Shown: one piece after another, positions 1 through 8,200 of the stretch
How the letters are laid out: the number at the start of each line of letters is the position of its first letter
Position numbering within the stretch: the stretch's first letter is position 1
DNA from: an uncultured Oscillospiraceae bacterium
Lineage (GTDB): Bacteria; Bacillota; Clostridia; Oscillospirales; Oscillospiraceae
Assembly: GCA_947630375.1 (NCBI GenBank)
Contig: CANRHH010000003.1
Location: 32,502 to 96,501 of the forward strand
Length of the DNA: 64,000 nucleotides
Direction: 5' to 3'
Notes under the pieces: generated by a model
Told to the model about the DNA's origin: nothing
The model's database searches: none
What the model saw: the letters and a program-made list of their open reading frames with translations, nothing else
Translations under genes and position numbers: made by a program

Positions 1-29
1 GAAGCATGGAACGAATGAGCTTTCGGCCT

Positions 30-165
30 CTGGACGGAAGCGAATGAGTGTAATCGCTTCCGACGTAGGCAAGCAGAGCGTCTGTCCGACTTCGTCGGTC
101 GCCACATTTCGCCGGGGAACCCGCTCCCCCGGCAAAAGGGCAGAAGCCCAAACCCACTTCTTCGT
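30..165 (+). other. Putative oriT / mobilization leader
   Basis: Non-coding stretch directly upstream of the MobC and relaxase genes. It holds three inverted repeats: an 8-bp stem at 36-43/54-61, a 5-bp stem at 86-90/94-98 and a 7-bp stem at 111-117/127-133. Relaxases of this type usually nick in a hairpin-rich region just upstream of their own gene, so this is the natural oriT candidate. The nic site cannot be placed. Bases 1-30 show nothing I can assign. Confidence 0.4.
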
Positions 166-221
166 CGGTGCAAATGATGTGGCAGAGAAAAAACAAAATC
201 ACTTTTAGCAAAGGAGGAAAC

Positions 222-542
222 ATGAAAACCACAAACAAGGATAAGCGGATCACGATACGTCTCACGCCGGAGCAGTACGAAAGCATCTGCTCTCGAGCAA
301 AGACTGCCATGATGTCACCCAGCGCATATATCCGAGCGGCAGCTATGCGGCACAAGGTCTGTGTGGTGCCGGGCCTGAAAGAGATGGTCCATGAGATGAA
401 AGGCATAGGCCGCAACCTCAATCAGCTCACCATGCTGGCCAACGCCGGAACCATCCATGAGGTCAACCTGAAGGAAATGGACAGGCGGCTGGACCACGTC
501 TACATTCGGCTCAGCGAGATCGCGTCCATGGAAAGCAGGTAG
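222..542 (+). CDS. mobC: MobC-like relaxosome accessory protein
   Basis: 106-residue basic protein. The N-terminus (RITIRLTPEQYESI) resembles a ribbon-helix-helix DNA-binding segment, and the C-terminal half (GIGRNLNQL, then a helical tail) matches the MobC family that helps the relaxase bind and melt oriT. The start at 222 is chosen because AAAGGAGG lies 8-10 bases upstream; an in-frame GTG at 168 has no ribosome site. The gene ends two bases before the relaxase start, as in typical mobCA pairs, so the two are probably co-translated. Family assignment is from sequence pattern; function is known for the family. Confidence 0.8.
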   Translation: MKTTNKDKRITIRLTPEQYESICSRAKTAMMSPSAYIRAAAMRHKVCVVPGLKEMVHEMKGIGRNLNQLTMLANAGTIHEVNLKEMDRRLDHVYIRLSEIASMESR

Positions 543-544
543 CT

Positions 545-1852
545 ATGGCGACCGTCAACTACATTAAGTACAGCTCTCAGAGCCGGGCCGTGCTCGGCAG
601 AGTGGCCGCGTATGTGGCTCAGGAGAAAAAGACTGTGGACGCACAAGGAGAAAAGCTGGTGAGCGGACAGAACTGCTCCCCGCAGTTTGCTCTCCGTGAA
701 TTTGTGGCGACGCGGGAGGCGCACCGAAAGAACAGCCCCGTCTGGTTCTACCACTACACCCAGTCCTTCCATCCGAAGGAAAACATCACCCCGCAGCAGG
801 CTCATACCCTGGCGAAGGAGTTCGCGGCCAGAGCGTGGCCGGAAAGCGAGGTGCTCATCACAACGCACTGCGACGCGGAACACATCCACTCTCATTTTCT
901 GGTGAACGCCGTCTGCTACGAGTCCGGGAAGATGCTCCGGCAAGGTCCCAACACCCTCGAGACGCTGCGGCAGCTCAGCGACGAGCTGTGCGTGGAACAC
1001 AAGCTCTCTGTCCTGCCTCCTAAGCGCAGGGAGCAGAGGGGCAGCATGAGCTCCAGGGAATACCGTTCGGCAGAGAAGGGCGAGAGCTGGAAGTTCCGTC
1101 TGATGAACGCCATCGATGAATGTATGCTCTACGCGGCGAGCCGGGAAGAGTTCATCCGGCTGATGGAGAGCGAGGGCTATGGGGTACGCTGGACGGAGAA
1201 CAGGAAAAACATCACCTACACCACGCCGGGCGGCATGAAGGCCAGAGACTGCCGCCTGCACGAAAGAAAATATTTGAAGGAGGTTATGGAAGATGAGTTC
1301 AGGATCAGAGCAGAGCTCCTTGCTGGATCAGTTCCGGAGCCGCAACGGAGCGGCCACACAAGAACAGGTCGTGATGCACGCCGTAGCGGTCCAATGGTCG
1401 GAGGATACGGCGGAGCTAATGAACCAGCTGCTGAATATCACCGAGAGTCTGCTGGCGTCAGTCAGCCGGATAGAGACAGAGCTTGGGACGCTGAACGTGA
1501 ATACACGGCTGGCGGAGATACAGCAGATGCTTCTGAAGCTGGAGAAACGGACGGAAGCTCCGCCCGCACCGGCTGGGAGAAAGAGAGAGCCATATTCCTG
1601 GCGATGGCACTGGAGTCTGCCAAGGCTTCACTTCTCCATGGGACTGTTGTGGCTCCTACCGATTGGGATAGCCTTGTTCGCTCTGTGGTCCAGCTGGGGA
1701 GATCTGTGGAACGCGCTGAGGACCCTGCTCCCGTGATAGTGACAGGCCATACAGACCGCCGCCAACGGGAGAAAGAACGGGAAAAGCGGCTGGCCCTCGG
1801 CCACAAGGTGGATGACCATGAGGACAGCCCGAATTGGCAGCAAACAATGTGA
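545..1852 (+). CDS. mobA: Relaxase/mobilization nuclease (MobP-type)
   Basis: 435-residue relaxase. The N-terminal 240 residues carry the relaxase core: an early Tyr-rich start (VNYIKYSSQS), a middle motif YTQSFHPKENITP and the metal-binding histidine motif HIHSHF near residues 117-122. It should nick oriT and carry the strand to the recipient. The C-terminal 180 residues are low in hydrophobics and rich in Gly/Arg/Asp/Glu. That tail is dual-coding, because another protein is read from 1293-1736 in a different frame. No type IV secretion genes are visible, so transfer would depend on a helper. The element continues left of the window. Confidence 0.88.
   Translation: MATVNYIKYSSQSRAVLGRVAAYVAQEKKTVDAQGEKLVSGQNCSPQFALREFVATREAHRKNSPVWFYHYTQSFHPKENITPQQAHTLAKEFAARAWPESEVLITTHCDAEHIHSHFLVNAVCYESGKMLRQGPNTLETLRQLSDELCVEHKLSVLPPKRREQRGSMSSREYRSAEKGESWKFRLMNAIDECMLYAASREEFIRLMESEGYGVRWTENRKNITYTTPGGMKARDCRLHERKYLKEVMEDEFRIRAELLAGSVPEPQRSGHTRTGRDARRSGPMVGGYGGANEPAAEYHRESAGVSQPDRDRAWDAEREYTAGGDTADASEAGETDGSSARTGWEKERAIFLAMALESAKASLLHGTVVAPTDWDSLVRSVVQLGRSVERAEDPAPVIVTGHTDRRQREKEREKRLALGHKVDDHEDSPNWQQTM
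1293..1736 (+). CDS. Nested membrane protein overlapping the relaxase (MobB-like position)
   Basis: 147-residue protein read entirely inside the relaxase gene in another frame. It has its own ribosome site (AAGGAGG, 9 bases before ATG 1293). It looks like a real protein: a helical, coiled-coil-prone middle (LLNITESLLASVSRIETEL) with spaced leucines, a Pro/Arg linker, then one strong hydrophobic helix near residues 112-135 and a short tail. ColE1-type plasmids encode mobB, a membrane-associated mobilization protein, inside mobA in a shifted frame, so a similar role is plausible by arrangement. I see no direct sequence match to MobB. The frame is open for 147 codons with good initiation signals. 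Confidence 0.6.
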   Translation: MSSGSEQSSLLDQFRSRNGAATQEQVVMHAVAVQWSEDTAELMNQLLNITESLLASVSRIETELGTLNVNTRLAEIQQMLLKLEKRTEAPPAPAGRKREPYSWRWHWSLPRLHFSMGLLWLLPIGIALFALWSSWGDLWNALRTLLP

Positions 1853-2004
1853 AAGGAAGGGAACAAAAATGGAACACCCACAAGCCCGCGAAAGCGGAAA
1901 CAGATTAACCTGCTATGCGGACGTCAATAATGAAAGAAAAAGAAAAGCCGGCTCAGACTGCCGCGCCGAGGAAAAAATCATGAGTAAAACAAAGGAAGCG
2001 ACTT

Positions 2005-2187
2005 ATGGAGTTCAAAGTAAGATTGTTTTTAGACGAAAGATACATCGACCCATCCGAGTATCCGACGATCAAGATCTCATCTCCTGTGATCGACCGGATC
2101 GTAAACCACATCTACGATGTTAATCATATGGACGACCAGATCGATTACAGCGAGATAGAGTTGACGACAGACCCCACCCTGCAATAA
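2005..2187 (+). CDS. Small hypothetical protein of the mobilizable element
   Basis: 60-residue acidic protein beginning MEFKVRLFLDERYIDPSEYP, with AAGGAAG seven bases before the start. Its composition (regular hydrophobics, no stop-prone low complexity) supports a real gene. It lies between the relaxase and the recombinase and ends at a terminator. I do not recognise a family. A second open frame (1869-2123, with a good ribosome site AAGGAAGGG) overlaps it; that one has an Arg/Lys-rich, unconvincing sequence, though its beginning could serve as a leader peptide. Confidence 0.45.
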   Translation: MEFKVRLFLDERYIDPSEYPTIKISSPVIDRIVNHIYDVNHMDDQIDYSEIELTTDPTLQ

Positions 2188-2194
2188 GAGGGTT

Positions 2195-2228
2195 CGCCGG
2201 GGTATGCGATGCGTGCCCCGGCGATTTT
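2195..2228 (+). terminator. Rho-independent terminator after the mobilization genes
   Basis: An 8-bp GC stem (CGCCGGGG at 2195-2202, CCCCGGCG at 2216-2223) is followed by ATTTTTC. It separates the mob genes from the recombinase. Confidence 0.65.
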
Positions 2229-2276
2229 TCGCTGTTCGTATGTTTCACGGTTCGTATAAGAAAAATAAGGAAACTG

Positions 2277-2305
2277 TTGATAATGGAGAAAAGATGTGAT
2301 ATACT
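2277..2305 (+). promoter_or_regulatory. Promoter of the serine recombinase
   Basis: TTGATA (2277-2282), a 17-base spacer and TATACT (2300-2305) form a near-consensus sigma-A promoter. Transcription would begin about 2311, which rules out the upstream in-frame starts and supports ATG 2331. It resembles a vegetative promoter, not a sporulation one. Confidence 0.65.
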
Positions 2306-2330
2306 GCTGAAAAAGAAGGCGGTGAAGGAA

Positions 2331-3905
2331 ATGAAAAGGACCGAGAGGACCTATCATCTGAAAAACATTCTCGATATGCGGTCGAATATGAAGATTGTGA
2401 TCGACGACGCGGTCGAGGTCAGCGAGGACGGGGCCTATCTGGTCAACGTGGGCTATCTGCGCGTATCCACGGACCGGCAGGCGGACAAGGGCTTCGGCCT
2501 GGATATCCAGGAAGCCGATATCATCCGCTATTGCACGGCCAACGGCTATAAGAATCTGGTGCTGTATATCGATGACGGCTACACCGGCACCAACATGGAC
2601 CGGCCCGCTCTGCAGGCGATCATCCAGACGATACGGGACTTCAACGACGGAAAATCCCGCGTCCGGGTCAACGCCATGGTGGTGGCCAGGATCGACCGGC
2701 TGGGCAGGTCGCTGCTGGGGACGCTGCAGTTTATTCAGGATTACATCGTGTGCGCCAAGGACAGCAAGAACAGCCTGGTCAACCGGAACCGGGAGGACAT
2801 CAACTTCGTGTCCGTGGCGGAGAACTACTGCCGCATAGACAGGGACAATCCCCAGGGAAAATTCCTGCTGATGCTGTTTGCGACGCTGGCCGAATTTGAC
2901 CGCGACCAGATCGTGGAGAAGCTCAGCCGGGGCCGTATAGAGCGGGTGGCCTCCGGCAAGTGGATGGGCGGCGGGAACACGCCCTATGGCTACCGTTACG
3001 ACCGGGAGAGCTCGTCCCTGGTCGTCGTCCCGGAGGAGGCGGAGGTGGTCAAAGAGATATTCCGCCTGTACATCGAGGAGAAGCTGAGCCCCCAGAAGAT
3101 CGCGGAGCGCTTCGGCTTCAGCGGCGATAAGGCCATTACGCAGATCCTACGGCGAAAGTCTCTGACCGGCTGCATCGTCTACAAGGGAGAGGAATATCCG
3201 GGAAACCATGAGGCGATCATCCCGCTGGACGTCTGGGAGCAGGCCCAGGAGGAGCTGGAGCGGCGGAGCGTCCACCGCACGGCGTCCAACTATCTGCTGT
3301 CCGGGCTGCTCTATTGCGGTGAGTGCGGCGCGAAAATGCGCTATCAGCGCTGGGGGAATAACGGACATAAGCTGGTGTGCTATACTACCCAGGATTCCAG
3401 CAAAAGGCGGTTCGGGACGGCGGAGAGCTGCGACAGTGAGCGGTTTCGGAGCGAGGACGTGGAGCAGGCGGTCATCAGTGAGCTGTTCCGCCTGAGCTAC
3501 CTGGGCCTGGAGAACAACAAAAAGACGGCGGGGGCCATTGACCCGGTGGGAGTCTTGCAGAAAGAGCTGGCCGCCGAGCGCAGACGCCTGAGCCGCCTGT
3601 ATGACTTTGAGGACGAGGACGAGCCGGACGATGTGCTGTTCGAGAAGATCCAGGAGGTCAAAAAGCGGATGCTGAGCCTGGAGGCCCAGATCCGCAACGA
3701 GGAGACCCAGGCCAGCATCGACAAGAAGCTGCGCCGGGCGAAAAAGCTCCTTCGGACCCTCCAGTCCACCTGGCCGCATATGAGCGACGCGGAGCGGCAG
3801 AGCGCCTGCCAGGAGCTGATAGACCGGGTCGTCATCTACAAGGACGGCACGATCGATGTCCACCTGAAGCTGAAAAGCTATCTGCAAAGTAACGAAAATT
3901 CCTGA
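2331..3905 (+). CDS. Large serine recombinase (site-specific integrase)
   Basis: 524 residues from ATG 2331. Order: a resolvase domain with the catalytic serine in GYLRVSTDRQ, arginines in ARIDRLGRS and the E-helix motif FATLAEFDRDQIVEKLSRG; a Recombinase domain (GNTPYGYRYD onwards); a zinc ribbon starting CGECGAKM; and a C-terminal coiled coil (two long Arg/Glu/Leu-rich helices). This is the standard plan of integrases that insert and excise elements at fixed att sites. The gene ends about 50 bases from the sigG fragment, so the enzyme sits at the element's right end and very likely recognises sigG as attB. That arrangement recalls SpoIVCA of the Bacillus sigK skin element. Confidence 0.9.
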   Translation: MKRTERTYHLKNILDMRSNMKIVIDDAVEVSEDGAYLVNVGYLRVSTDRQADKGFGLDIQEADIIRYCTANGYKNLVLYIDDGYTGTNMDRPALQAIIQTIRDFNDGKSRVRVNAMVVARIDRLGRSLLGTLQFIQDYIVCAKDSKNSLVNRNREDINFVSVAENYCRIDRDNPQGKFLLMLFATLAEFDRDQIVEKLSRGRIERVASGKWMGGGNTPYGYRYDRESSSLVVVPEEAEVVKEIFRLYIEEKLSPQKIAERFGFSGDKAITQILRRKSLTGCIVYKGEEYPGNHEAIIPLDVWEQAQEELERRSVHRTASNYLLSGLLYCGECGAKMRYQRWGNNGHKLVCYTTQDSSKRRFGTAESCDSERFRSEDVEQAVISELFRLSYLGLENNKKTAGAIDPVGVLQKELAAERRRLSRLYDFEDEDEPDDVLFEKIQEVKKRMLSLEAQIRNEETQASIDKKLRRAKKLLRTLQSTWPHMSDAERQSACQELIDRVVIYKDGTIDVHLKLKSYLQSNENS

Positions 3906-3960
3906 AATTCCGAAATTTCAAGAACATTTTATATTATTACGCCATTCGGTAATCGTTCCC
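3906..3960. other. Right attachment junction (attR) of the element in sigG
   Basis: Between the recombinase stop and the sigG homology. Similarity to sigma-G proteins starts abruptly at the codons for VPMIAGE (from 3955); the residues normally before it (FSTYA) are absent and replaced by unrelated AT-rich DNA. The crossover must therefore lie close to 3955-3965. The exact core needs the left junction, which is outside the window. Confidence 0.65.
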
Positions 3961-4452
3961 ATGATTGCCGGGGAGCTGCGGCGCTTTCTCCGGGACCACA
4001 GCGCCCTGCGGGTCTCCCGCTCCATGCGGGATACGGCCTACCGGGTGCTCCAGGCCAAGGAAAAGCTCACCGCCGAGACCGGCCGGGAGCCGGACATGGA
4101 GACCATCGCCAAGACCCTGGACATTCCCCGCCAGGAGGTGGTCTTTGCCTTGGAGGCCATCTGCGACCCGGTCTCCCTCTATGAGCCGGTGTACAGCGAC
4201 GCGGGAGAGAGCGCCTGCGTCATGGACCAGATCGGCGACCCCCGCAACACCGACGAGCACTGGCTGGAGCAGATCGCCTTGGAGGAGGCCATGCGCCGCC
4301 TGACGGCCCGGGAAAAGCGCATCCTGTCCCTGCGCTTTTACGACGGCCACACCCAGATGGAGGTGGCCAAAGAGGTGGGCATCTCCCAGGCCCAGGTCTC
4401 CCGGCTGGAGAAAAACGCCATCCGGCAAATCAAGAAAAATATCAGCGCATGA
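3955..4452 (+). pseudogene. sigG: sigG 3' part, sporulation sigma factor G, interrupted by a mobile element
   Basis: About 165 residues matching the C-terminal two thirds of sigma-G, the late forespore sigma factor. Visible are the end of region 2 (GELRRFLRD), region 3 (RVSRSMRDTAYRVLQ), the sigma-G-specific stretch DPVSLYEPVY...VMDQIGDPRNTD and the region 4 helix-turn-helix TQMEVAKEVGISQAQVSRLE. The N-terminal region, including the -10-binding part of region 2, is missing at the left and presumably lies beyond the element. The internal ATG at 3961 lacks a ribosome site and would give a protein without the core -10 binding helices. Excision of the element would be needed to restore the gene. 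Sigma-F is a less good match because the VMDQI/RNTD block is typical of sigma-G. Confidence 0.88.
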
Positions 4453-5277: not shown

Positions 5278-8200
5278 TCAATATTCAAAGGTCCCGTCAA
5301 AGACTTTTACTGCCGCGCCGGAGAGGCTGACCCGCTCTCCGTCGTAGCGGACGGTGAGCTCCCCGCCGGGGAGGATCACCCGGATCTCCCGGTCCCGGTC
5401 GCAAAAGCCGTTTTCCACCGCGGCCACCGCCGCGGCGCAGGCGCCGGTGCCGCAGGCCAGGGTCTCCCCGATGCCCCGCTCCCAGACTCGCATCCGCAGG
5501 GTGCTCCGGTTCACCACATGCACGAACTCCGCGTTCACCCGCTCCGGGAACAGGGGCGCGTACTCAAAGGCCGGGCCCAGGTCCTCCAGGTCCAGGTGCT
5601 CCACCGAGGGGAAGAACACCACACAGTGGGGGTTGCCCACGTTGACGCAGGTCAGGGCGTAGTCCTGACCGCCGATCCGGGCCGGATAGCACACCATCCG
5701 CTCCCAGTCCGCGGCGGCGGGGATCTCCTCCGCCTTCAGGCTGACCCGGCCCATGTCCGCAGACACGGTGCTGACTTTTCCGTCCCGGGTGAAAAGCCGC
5801 AGCTCCTTGACGCCGCTGGCGGTCTCCACGGTGATCCGCTCCCGGCGCACCAGGCCCCGGTCGTACAGGACCTTGGCCACACACCGCAGGTTGTTGCCGG
5901 CCAGCTTTCCCTCGCTGCCGTCCCGGTTGAAGGAGCGCATTTTCGCGTCGGCCACCGCGGAGCTCTCGATGAGCACCAGCCCATCGCTGCCTACGCCGTA
6001 GTGGGCCGGGCAGAGGCTGACGCAGAGGGACTCGGGGCAGCTGATGGAGCCGTCAAAGTTCTCGATAAAGATATAGTCGTTGCCGCAGCTGTGCATCTTG
6101 GTGAAGGGCACCTGGCGGCGGGCGCGGCGCATGGTGTTGATGTCCACCAGCTCGGTGTTCTCCTGGTTGAAGCGGCTGGCGATGATGTCGGCCAGGGCAT
6201 TGGCGGTGTCCAGAGAGGTCAGGCAGGGGATGCCCAGCTGCATGGCCTTTCGGTGCAGGGCGATGTAATCACCCATGGTGGCGTCCTTCACCGCCCCGGT
6301 GTACACGATATAACACAGAGCGCCCCGCTCCATGAGCCGGTGGATCTCTCCGCTCTCGGTGGCGTTGGGGACGGACTCCACCTCCACGCCCAGGGAGGCG
6401 ATGGCCTCCGCCGTGCCGGGGGTGGCGTAGAGCTTCAGGCCCAGCTCATAAAAGCGGCGGGCCAGGGTCAAAATCTCCTGGTAGTCCCCGGTTTCCACGC
6501 TTAAGAGCACCCCGGCGCCGGAGCGCTCCCGGGGCGGGAGCCGGAACCCGGCGGCGGTGAGGCCCTTGAACATGGCCTCGGCCAGGGTGGCGCCGATGCC
6601 CAGCACCTCGCCGGTGGATTTCATCTCCGGGCCCAGGATGGAGTTGGCATCGTTGAGCTTTTCAAAGGAGAACACCGGCACCTTCACCGCGTAATAGGGG
6701 GGCACCGGGGCCAGCCCCGTGCCGCAGCCCAGATCCCGCAGCTTCTCCCCCAGCATGATCCGGGAGGCCAGGTCCACCATGGGCACGTTGGTCACCTTGC
6801 TGATATAGGGCACCGTCCGGGAGGCCCGGGGGTTGACCTCGATCACATACAGCTCCCCGTCGTAGATCAGGTACTGGATGTTCACCAGACCCTTGGTACC
6901 CAGGGCCAGGGCCAGCTTCTCGGAGCAGTCGCAGATCCGGTGCAGCTGCCGGTCGTCCAGGTTATAGGGGGGATAGACGGCGATGGAGTCCCCGCTGTGG
7001 ATCCCCGCCCGCTCGATGTGCTCCATAATGCCGGGGATCAGCACCTGCTCCCCGTCGGACAGCACGTCCACCTCCAGCTCGATGCCGGGCATGTACTTGT
7101 CCACCAGCACCGGATTCTCGATGCCGCCGGAGAGGATGGTGCGCATATAGCGCTCGGTCTGGAGCCGGTCGTGGGAGATGGTCATGTTCTGGCCGCCGAT
7201 CACATAGGAGGGCCGCAGCAGCACCGGGTAGCCCAGCTCCTCCGCCGCCGCCAGCGCCCCCTCCAGGCCGTTGACGCCCCGGCCCTTGGGCCGGCTGATG
7301 CCGAAGCGCTCCAGCAGGGCGTCGAACCGGGCCCGGTCCTCGGCGATGTCGATGCTGTCGGCGGAAGTCCCTAAGATGGGGATGCCCAGGCCGTCCAGAA
7401 ACTGGGTCAGCTTGATGGCGGTCTGGCCGCCGAAGGCCACCACCACCCCGATGGGCTTCTCCACCCGGATGATGTTCAGCACGTCCTCCCGGCACAGAGG
7501 CTCAAAATACAGCCGGTCGGCGGTGTCATAGTCGGTGGAGACGGTCTCCGGGTTGTTGTTGACGATGACCACGTCATAGCCCAGTTCCCGCAGGGTCCAC
7601 ACGCAGTGCACCGAGCTGTAGTCAAACTCGATGCCCTGGCCGATGCGGATGGGGCCGGAGCCCAGCACCATCACCACCGGCTTGCCGCTGCGCTTAAAGC
7701 TCTCCGCCTCGCACTCCGCGTCAAAGCCGGAGTAAAAATAGGGGGTCTGGGCCTCAAATTCCGCGCCGCAGGTGTCCACCATCTTGTAGTGCATGGCCAG
7801 GCCCGGCACGGTCTCCGCCCCGCTCAGGCGGCGGAGGGCCTCGTCCGGATAGCCCAGGAGCTTGCCCCGGCGGTAGCGCTCCGCCGTCAGGCCCTCCCGG
7901 GCCAGCTCCAGCTCATAGTCCGCTAAGTTTTGTATCTTACAGAGAAACCAGGGGTCGATCTTCGTAATGGCGTGGATCTCCTCCACGGAGACGCCCGCCT
8001 TCAGGGCCTCGAACACGGTGAAGAGCCGCCGGTCGTTCTGCTGGGCCAGGCGCTCCCGTACCGGGGCGGCGGTGAGAGGCGGGGCGTTCAGGGTGTCCAG
8101 GTTGATCTCCGCCCCCCGGACGGCCTTCATCAGGGCCATTTCAAAGTTGGAGGCAATGGCCATCACCTCGCCGGTGGCCTTCATCTGGGTGCCCAGCTTC

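Follow-up and report, generated by a model that had tools for sequence, protein, structure and literature searches.

A stretch of 64,000 nucleotides from the genome of an uncultured bacterium of the Oscillospiraceae (GenBank assembly GCA_947630375.1, contig CANRHH010000003.1, positions 32,502 to 96,501 of the forward strand; termed the window in the following) contains a gene for a large serine recombinase (LSR), which is followed by only the second part of sigG, the gene of the forespore sigma factor of sporulation. The question raised by this locus is whether the strain is unable to make sigma-G or whether the mobilizable element to which the recombinase belongs is excised to restore the gene. 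The source genome is designated G000 and its contig C3, the window being C3:32502-96501. The explanation which we consider probable is that an LSR-integrated mobilizable element splits sigG and that recombination by the LSR rejoins it, probably around sporulation. Rejoining to make sigma-G is best supported at the family level, where it is likely but unproven, and it is less certain for G000 alone.

The insertion in sigG is real and precise. In a sequence-only reading of the window it had been noted that sigma-G homology starts abruptly at VPMIAGE (position 3955) beside the recombinase gene, the FSTY codons and everything before them being absent there, and the analysis bears this out. A search of the whole G000 assembly (2.33 Mb, 64 contigs, 95.9% complete) with the SigG model gave two partial matches on the plus strand of C3, one to model residues 2-97 (C3:13508-13795) and one to residues 90-254 (C3:36450-36944, window 3949-4443); a full-length sigG, and hence an intact second copy, was found nowhere in G000. 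The 5' half, which was suspected to lie to the left together with a short core repeat, is indeed present at the left end of the element (C3:13499-13782), on the same contig and strand as the 3' half and about 19 kb left of the window, and the core CGTTCC is common to both junctions (C3:13777-13782 and C3:36455-36460, the latter being window 3954-3959). The features at the right junction are as follows.

1..3957, plus strand: right end of the mobilizable element inserted in sigG, the remainder of which lies left of the window (junctions, shared core).
2331..3905, plus strand: LSR with resolvase, recombinase and zinc-ribbon domains (Pfam PF00239, PF07508, PF13408).
3932..3959, plus strand: attR, consisting of the element-side arm and the core CGTTCC (3954-3959) with the central dinucleotide CC (3958-3959).
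3955..4452, plus strand: 3' part of sigG, from V-P-M-I-A-G-E to the stop codon (NCBIfam TIGR02850, 2e-71, covering model positions 92-254; PRK08215, 1.3e-73).

The element has a size of 22,678 bp (C3:13777-36454) and is set exactly into sigG: when the flanks are rejoined at the core, 259 codons without a stop result (...FSTYG-VPMIAGE...), so that removal of the element would restore the reading frame. Joining the element ends gives a reconstructed attP with a dyad around the core CC in which 15 of 20 positions match, a score reached by 5 of approximately 31,000 positions in the same 31 kb. The open frame, the rare dyad score and the cut at the same dinucleotide in many species place the split beyond chance. 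An assembly artefact was considered and rejected, because the same junction is present in many assemblies, including the single-contig genome G436.

Related genomes had been proposed as a place to look for uninterrupted sigG genes and for other elements at this position, and both were found among 101 congeneric genomes (G000 included), in which genes were called intact by score and not by gene-by-gene reading. Full-length sigG is present by this measure in 50 genomes, and in 19, G000 among them, sigG is cut with element sequence at the junction. The cut lies at the identical CC dinucleotide in all 19, and both junctions are seen in 14 of them; G057 has the same kind of element in reverse orientation. 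Left out of the split count were G050, G030 and an extra contig of G053, and G024, at one time taken as split, was dropped because its contig shows an intact junction. The exact attR pattern occurs in 18 of the 101 genomes, 17 times at a sigG 3' half; the remaining genome is G010, which lacks a SigG-like half and whose best match to the SigG model (9e-39) is of the RpoD kind. Matches with one mismatch were obtained in seven cases, and all six that were inspected were judged unrelated. The G010 site (L079, 682-699) consists of the right end of an element and a C-terminal LSR remnant at another gene and is possibly a secondary integration site.

The association is not confined to the genus. When named genome contigs were scanned with the LSR alignment, 23 loci were obtained, with titles from Oscillospiraceae, Ruminococcaceae and other clostridial bacteria (several named after ruminants), and 22 of them have a sigG half beside the LSR, an adjacency which holds down to 37% LSR identity; in the remaining locus (L094) the contig end cuts inside the LSR. 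In a sample of 394 genomes of the order, for which an LSR threshold of E 1e-70 was used and the best three candidates per genome were scored, the LSR is present in 30 genomes and sigG is interrupted in every one of them. In 22 of these, the distance between the LSR and a part of sigG is about 1.5 kb or less, and in the other eight, where sigG is likewise interrupted, the LSR is located farther away or elsewhere. Both halves are seen in 27 of the 29 LSR genomes besides G475; only the 3' half was found in G360 and only the 5' half in G306. According to the overall tally, 314 genomes have sigG intact by score (313 without G475), 30 have it split without an intact copy (29 with LSR plus G462 without), three are unclear (G166, G172, G221) and 47 have no match at the threshold. 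As the 313 other genomes with intact sigG have no LSR at the threshold, the table of LSR against split-only sigG reads 29/0/1/313 (Fisher p 3e-41, computed with 312 in place of 313). G475 itself (L153, L154) has an intact sigG and a second sigG 5' half by an inverted LSR, which may reflect a duplication or a strain mixture.

Every junction read by motif-anchored scripts has the same CC, and the attP dyads score 11-20 of 22 bases in 33 of 33 genomes (random mean 5.5; P(>=11) 1.2%); a conserved sporulation gene does serve as attB, as had been suggested for the window. A quick tree of the LSRs shows two deep groups which both use this site, although its long branches, above all that of L108, are unsure. 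In a class-wide sample, in which only adjacency was checked, the LSR was detected at E 1e-90 in 16 of 391 genomes, and sigG adjoins it in three (G000, G497, G857). Among the first 10 of 80 loci from IMG/VR, L223 has a sigG 5' half beside the LSR. The 62.6-kb viral contig L222 (IMG/VR 3300032167_000130, 6480-6655) has an LSR of clade A and then, at its end, the first codons of a sigG 3' half, and by this gene order it is probably a prophage at the same sigG site. In the order sampled, the LSR lineage goes with split sigG, and the system is wide, old and tied to this gene.

In two other genera, designated g4 and g108, the halves of sigG are separated by other DNA or dispersed. All five g4 species sampled are split, four of them with approximately 6.4 kb between the halves. 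In L159-L161 this interval contains a small open reading frame (ORF) and the LSR, and also a cassette of genes named by eye as iron alcohol dehydrogenase-like, ferredoxin-like and aldehyde ferredoxin oxidoreductase-like, which would represent metabolic cargo inside a sporulation gene. In the g4 species G395 (L163), the 5' half is inverted relative to the 3' half at a distance of 3.4 kb, either by natural inversion or by misassembly. Ten of the eleven g108 species seen are split. The halves are on different contigs in eight species, some of these contigs being so short that the distance is not fixed there. In the single-contig genome G436, a distance of 757 kb separates the halves and they lie on opposite strands; those of G430 are separated by 112 kb and their order is reversed. 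The LSR precedes the 3' half in 10 of 10 split species, and att arms are recognisable at both halves in 10 of 10 (dyads 11-14 of 22, random mean 5.5). The two genes after the 5' half of G436 were found in 9 of 9 other species compared, and near the 3' half 9 of 9 share the small ORF and the LSR and 7 of 9 a pta-like gene, which marks the arrangement as a common and old one. In G359, the only g108 species with an intact gene, sigG adjoins the pta-like gene and an LSR match is lacking. Given the arrangement in G436, excision of the deletion type is impossible there, and inversion by the same two sites would rejoin sigG. A rearranged form was found in none of the 11 g108 genomes, in which the right-junction pattern gave the known attR sites and matches judged to be chance. 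In G272 (L140, L141, L142), sigG appears in three pieces covering residues 2-96, 92-203 (contig end) and 180-254 (contig end), perhaps owing to a contig break.

The halves are constrained about as intact sigG is, with purifying selection on both, as judged from the ratio of nonsynonymous to synonymous substitutions (dN/dS; Nei-Gojobori medians over usable pairs; G272 was excluded from g108, and the split set of the genus still included G050 for both halves and G024 for the 3' half). The values for the 5' and 3' halves are 0.092 (28/36 pairs usable) and 0.075 (18/36) in nine g108 species, 0.026 and 0.028 (10/10 pairs each) in g4, 0.160 (102/105) and 0.173 (187/190) for split genes of the genus of G000, and 0.124 (304/406) and 0.163 (380/435) for its intact genes; LSR and LEP, an ORF described below, gave 0.152 and 0.229 in this genus. 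With constraint kept at a median synonymous difference of 0.53-0.63, the dispersed state in g108 must be long-lasting. LSR divergence in g108 tracks that of the unlinked 5' half (Mantel r 0.78, p 0.0002) and more loosely that of the 3' half (r 0.47, p 0.016), a pattern which vertical descent would produce; in the genus of G000, the differences of LSR and sigG 3' half also correlate (r 0.61). Because both halves are under selection in the lineages tested, rejoining should be frequent enough to keep sigG useful.

The G000 element was assumed from its mobilization genes to be mobile, and these genes are present at the left edge of the window, followed by possible control features of the LSR gene.

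222..542, plus strand: NikA/MobC-like mobilization protein (Pfam NikA-like, 2.9e-20; MobC, 3.5e-07).
545..1852, plus strand: MobA/VirD2-type relaxase of 435 aa (Pfam Relaxase PF03432, 4.8e-32).
2005..2187, plus strand: small ORF of 60 aa (MEFKVRLFL...), a candidate recombination directionality factor (script motif search).
2194..2224, plus strand: terminator-like hairpin between the small ORF and the recombinase gene (3 such sites in the region, 2.6 expected from shuffles).
2277..2305, plus strand: sigma-A-like promoter site TTGATA-17-TATACT before the recombinase gene (weak evidence: 1 found, 0.9 expected from shuffles).

The LSR contains the invariant RVST motif with the catalytic serine, and its gene ends about 50 bp from the core. 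Its ORF spans 2277-3905; the start at 2331, already preferred in the sequence-only reading, is the likelier one, since the promoter-like site occupies 2277-2305. The closest NCBIfam model is XisF (7.4e-31; 107.6 bits, under the cut-off of 375). In the left part of the element, genes were found for an AAA_25-type AAA-ATPase, a Ser/Thr kinase, a Schlafen/AlbA-type protein, a 1317-aa nSTAND NTPase with weak LmuA-like similarity, a type II methyltransferase (PADLOC only) and a 1369-aa helicase with an Eco57I-type methylase; the kinase, the helicase-methylase, the methyltransferase and the LmuA-like NTPase form a defence-like island at C3:16820-29652 (L009, L010). No conjugation genes (type IV secretion system) were recognised among 10 element proteins scanned with Pfam, a set that does not include all short ORFs. 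By this gene content the element is read as an integrative mobilizable element (IME) with restriction- or defence-like cargo.

Just within the left end of the G000 element lies an ORF of 184 aa, named LEP. In most elements its counterparts (179-187 aa) start some 43 nt inward of the left core, in G059, G077 and G036 farther from it; LEP is present at the left end of all 14 forward-oriented elements of the genus whose left end is seen. Nine of 11 members show weak HNH-repeat similarity; no match was obtained in phages and plasmids at E 1e-5, a profile search of PDB gave nothing better than E 0.26, and none of 104 pattern stretches in IMG/VR was confirmed. The locus L103 (5527-10127) is a compact sigG insertion of 3.8 kb with LEP, a 213-aa prepilin-like protein, the small ORF and the LSR, in which the sigG 5' half forms a single open frame of 301 codons with LEP and no mobilization gene was recognised on inspection by eye. 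Upstream of sigG, the motif GTATC-N14/15-GGAAATAMTA occurs at 10 of 15 confirmed split 5' halves and 23 of 30 intact genes of the genus, against shuffle expectations of 0.13 over all 41 sequences of the split set and 0.095 over the 30 intact ones; we take it to match the SigF consensus of Bacillus subtilis. Small ORFs are found at the same place upstream of the LSR in 12 of 13 other loci of the genus and also in g4, g108, G101 and L103. By position and conservation, LEP and the small ORF could be directionality factors, either of them or neither, because LEP lies off the sigG promoter in inverted elements, and g4 and g108 share only the small ORF before the LSR.

A scheme that would account for these observations is the following. 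The element would integrate via the LSR at the CC within the conserved codons FSTY[A/G]-V-P-M, the integrated state cutting sigG. The two halves would be brought back into one frame when the LSR recombines attL with attR; this would be an excision if an element lies between them, and an inversion or a resolution in genomes that have undergone later rearrangement. Rejoining would most likely happen in, or just before, the forespore. The LSR may be made constitutively, a partner protein switching it to excision. In the common orientation, LEP directly behind the sigG 5' half would be transcribed from the SigF-type promoter of sigG; excision would separate LEP from this promoter, and the default reaction of the LSR, attP with attB, could then re-integrate the element. 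Excision would give a circle with attP between LSR and LEP. A more far-reaching version, to which we give not quite an even chance, holds that many Oscillospirales keep sigG permanently in two, reassemble it by a dedicated LSR in the forespore, and hence in the germ line, and split it again after germination; in some genera the parts would have ceased to be a mobile element and become distant loci of the chromosome, which programmed inversion or resolution of hundreds of kilobases would join.

The sequence-only reading had left the choice between a strain without sigma-G and restoration by excision, and it is restoration that the comparative evidence favours, because sigG is split in many species, its halves are under selection close to that on the intact gene, and genomes with dispersed halves still have the att arms and the LSR; excision and its timing we infer. 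Several observations weigh against this explanation. No SigF match was obtained in the whole-genome search of G000, which speaks against G000 itself as a competent spore former. The dN/dS of split 5' halves in the genus is slightly above that of intact ones (0.160 vs 0.124). Some LSRs of the genus are far less diverged than the sigG of their hosts (pS 0.14-0.26 vs 0.42-0.59); elements therefore also move between species there, insertions can be recent, and selection on the halves could predate them. An attP is absent from the 101 assemblies of the genus at <=3 mismatches, and its exact pattern was not found in IMG/VR. Concerning control, the SigF-type motif was not found at the corresponding place in g4, g108 or 7 other 5' halves, BLAST gave no LEP in g4 or g108 loci, and wherever LEP was seen in inverted elements (G057, L100, L101/G438, G475, G484, G857, L223 and, judged from its LEP, G462), it does not lie downstream of the sigG promoter. 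The missing SigF match, the spread of LSRs between species and the lack of attP would all fit a selfish insertion that abolishes sporulation, its carriers being asporogenous and the insertions turning over or dying out, as would the genomes of the genus that have neither a sigG match nor spoIVA. We nevertheless regard this as unlikely: spoIVA is kept by 17 of the 19 split genomes (40 of 50 intact and 7 of 32 others) and a full-length SigF-like match by 16 (absent from G000, G056 and G078), all g4 and 10 of 11 g108 species are split with conserved neighbours and with dN/dS of 0.03-0.09 for the halves, and the compact element L103 persists with its LSR intact.

Restoration might also occur without developmental timing, in a reversible switch resembling active lysogeny, in which excision is stochastic and only a sigG-positive minority sporulates. 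Mixed populations have been reported for the yin element in yabG (PMC10747680), and in G050 two contigs overlap by exactly 99 bp from the core CGTTCC, as if occupied and empty sites met at a branch. A strain mixture would give the same overlap, however, the 5' contig runs unbroken through the core so that no attL branch is visible, and the absence of attP from the genus assemblies counts here as well; such a switch appears quite improbable. A last alternative dispenses with DNA rejoining and supposes a separate polypeptide from each half, the two assembling like the subunits of the sigma factor SigO-RsoA of B. subtilis. The conservation of the halves in g108 despite their dispersal and an ATG at the junction in 9 of 10 g108 3' halves would suit this model. 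Yet a Shine-Dalgarno-like motif precedes the first ATG in only 2 of 44 split 3' halves (both from g93; a 45th row, G024, is not split), or 3 of 44 if a start codon at the junction is taken, compared with 30 of 30 5' starts found by script; the break falls inside what we take to be conserved sigma region 2, and the model gives no account of the att dyads and the LSR. These points argue for rejoining of DNA, and a split sigma factor is very improbable indeed.

Rejoining of sigG by the LSR would have close parallels. The skin elements in sigK of Clostridioides difficile (skinCd) and B. subtilis are likewise LSR elements within a sporulation sigma factor gene that is rejoined precisely, and the skinCd LSR also has a sigma-A-type promoter; it is constitutive, a regulated directionality factor deciding the direction (PMC5025042). 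In SPbeta, sprA, which is constitutive, and sprB flank attP, which resembles the arrangement of LSR and LEP (PMC8270828). Intervening elements have been reported in sigK, spsM, spoVFB, gerE and yabG (PMC10747680), in spoVR (PMC5025042) and in kamA (PMC8270828), and SPbeta in spsM, phi3T in kamA, gin in gerE, vfbin in spoVFB and yin in yabG are similarly insertions that are rejoined in genes of sporulating bacteria (PMC8270828, PMC10747680, PMC5595907); in contrast to the present case, none of the latter targets sigG, and dispersed halves are not described in the sections of these sources that were consulted. Unlike skin, which acts in the terminal mother cell, the target here is the forespore factor, whose cell line is inherited, and sigG is found interrupted in several forms, by an element of IME type (G000), by what is probably a prophage (L222) and by a compact element (L103), or has its halves dispersed; excision would be the route of rejoining where an element lies between the halves. 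The G000 element resembles IMEs in its integrase, relaxase and accessory mobilization protein and differs from them in the use of a sporulation sigma gene as attB with in-frame rejoining. Heterocyst elements have been named as another such case (PMC5025042); the fdxN element of heterocystous cyanobacteria interrupts a developmental gene, and its XisF provides the best NCBIfam model for the LSR, the sequence relation being only distant. An element in sigG was mentioned in none of the titles or abstract openings among the matches listed from the open-access literature, and where sporulation genes were surveyed in metagenome genomes, sigG is given as present, the relevant passages making no mention of an interruption (PMC11536998).

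Insertion into genes of terminal cell lines has been argued to ensure vertical transmission (PMC5025042), an argument which does not fit here, because sigG is a forespore gene. The excision switches found described concern mother-cell genes; a sigG switch, if true, would act in the spore-forming cell itself, so that the rearranged chromosome would be inherited and would have to be reset. Annotation could then call gut spore formers sigG-deficient when sigG is merely split, and two conserved but dispersed gene halves could mark programmed rearrangements in uncultured bacteria. The LSR lineage provides natural integrases that share a single, exactly defined site.

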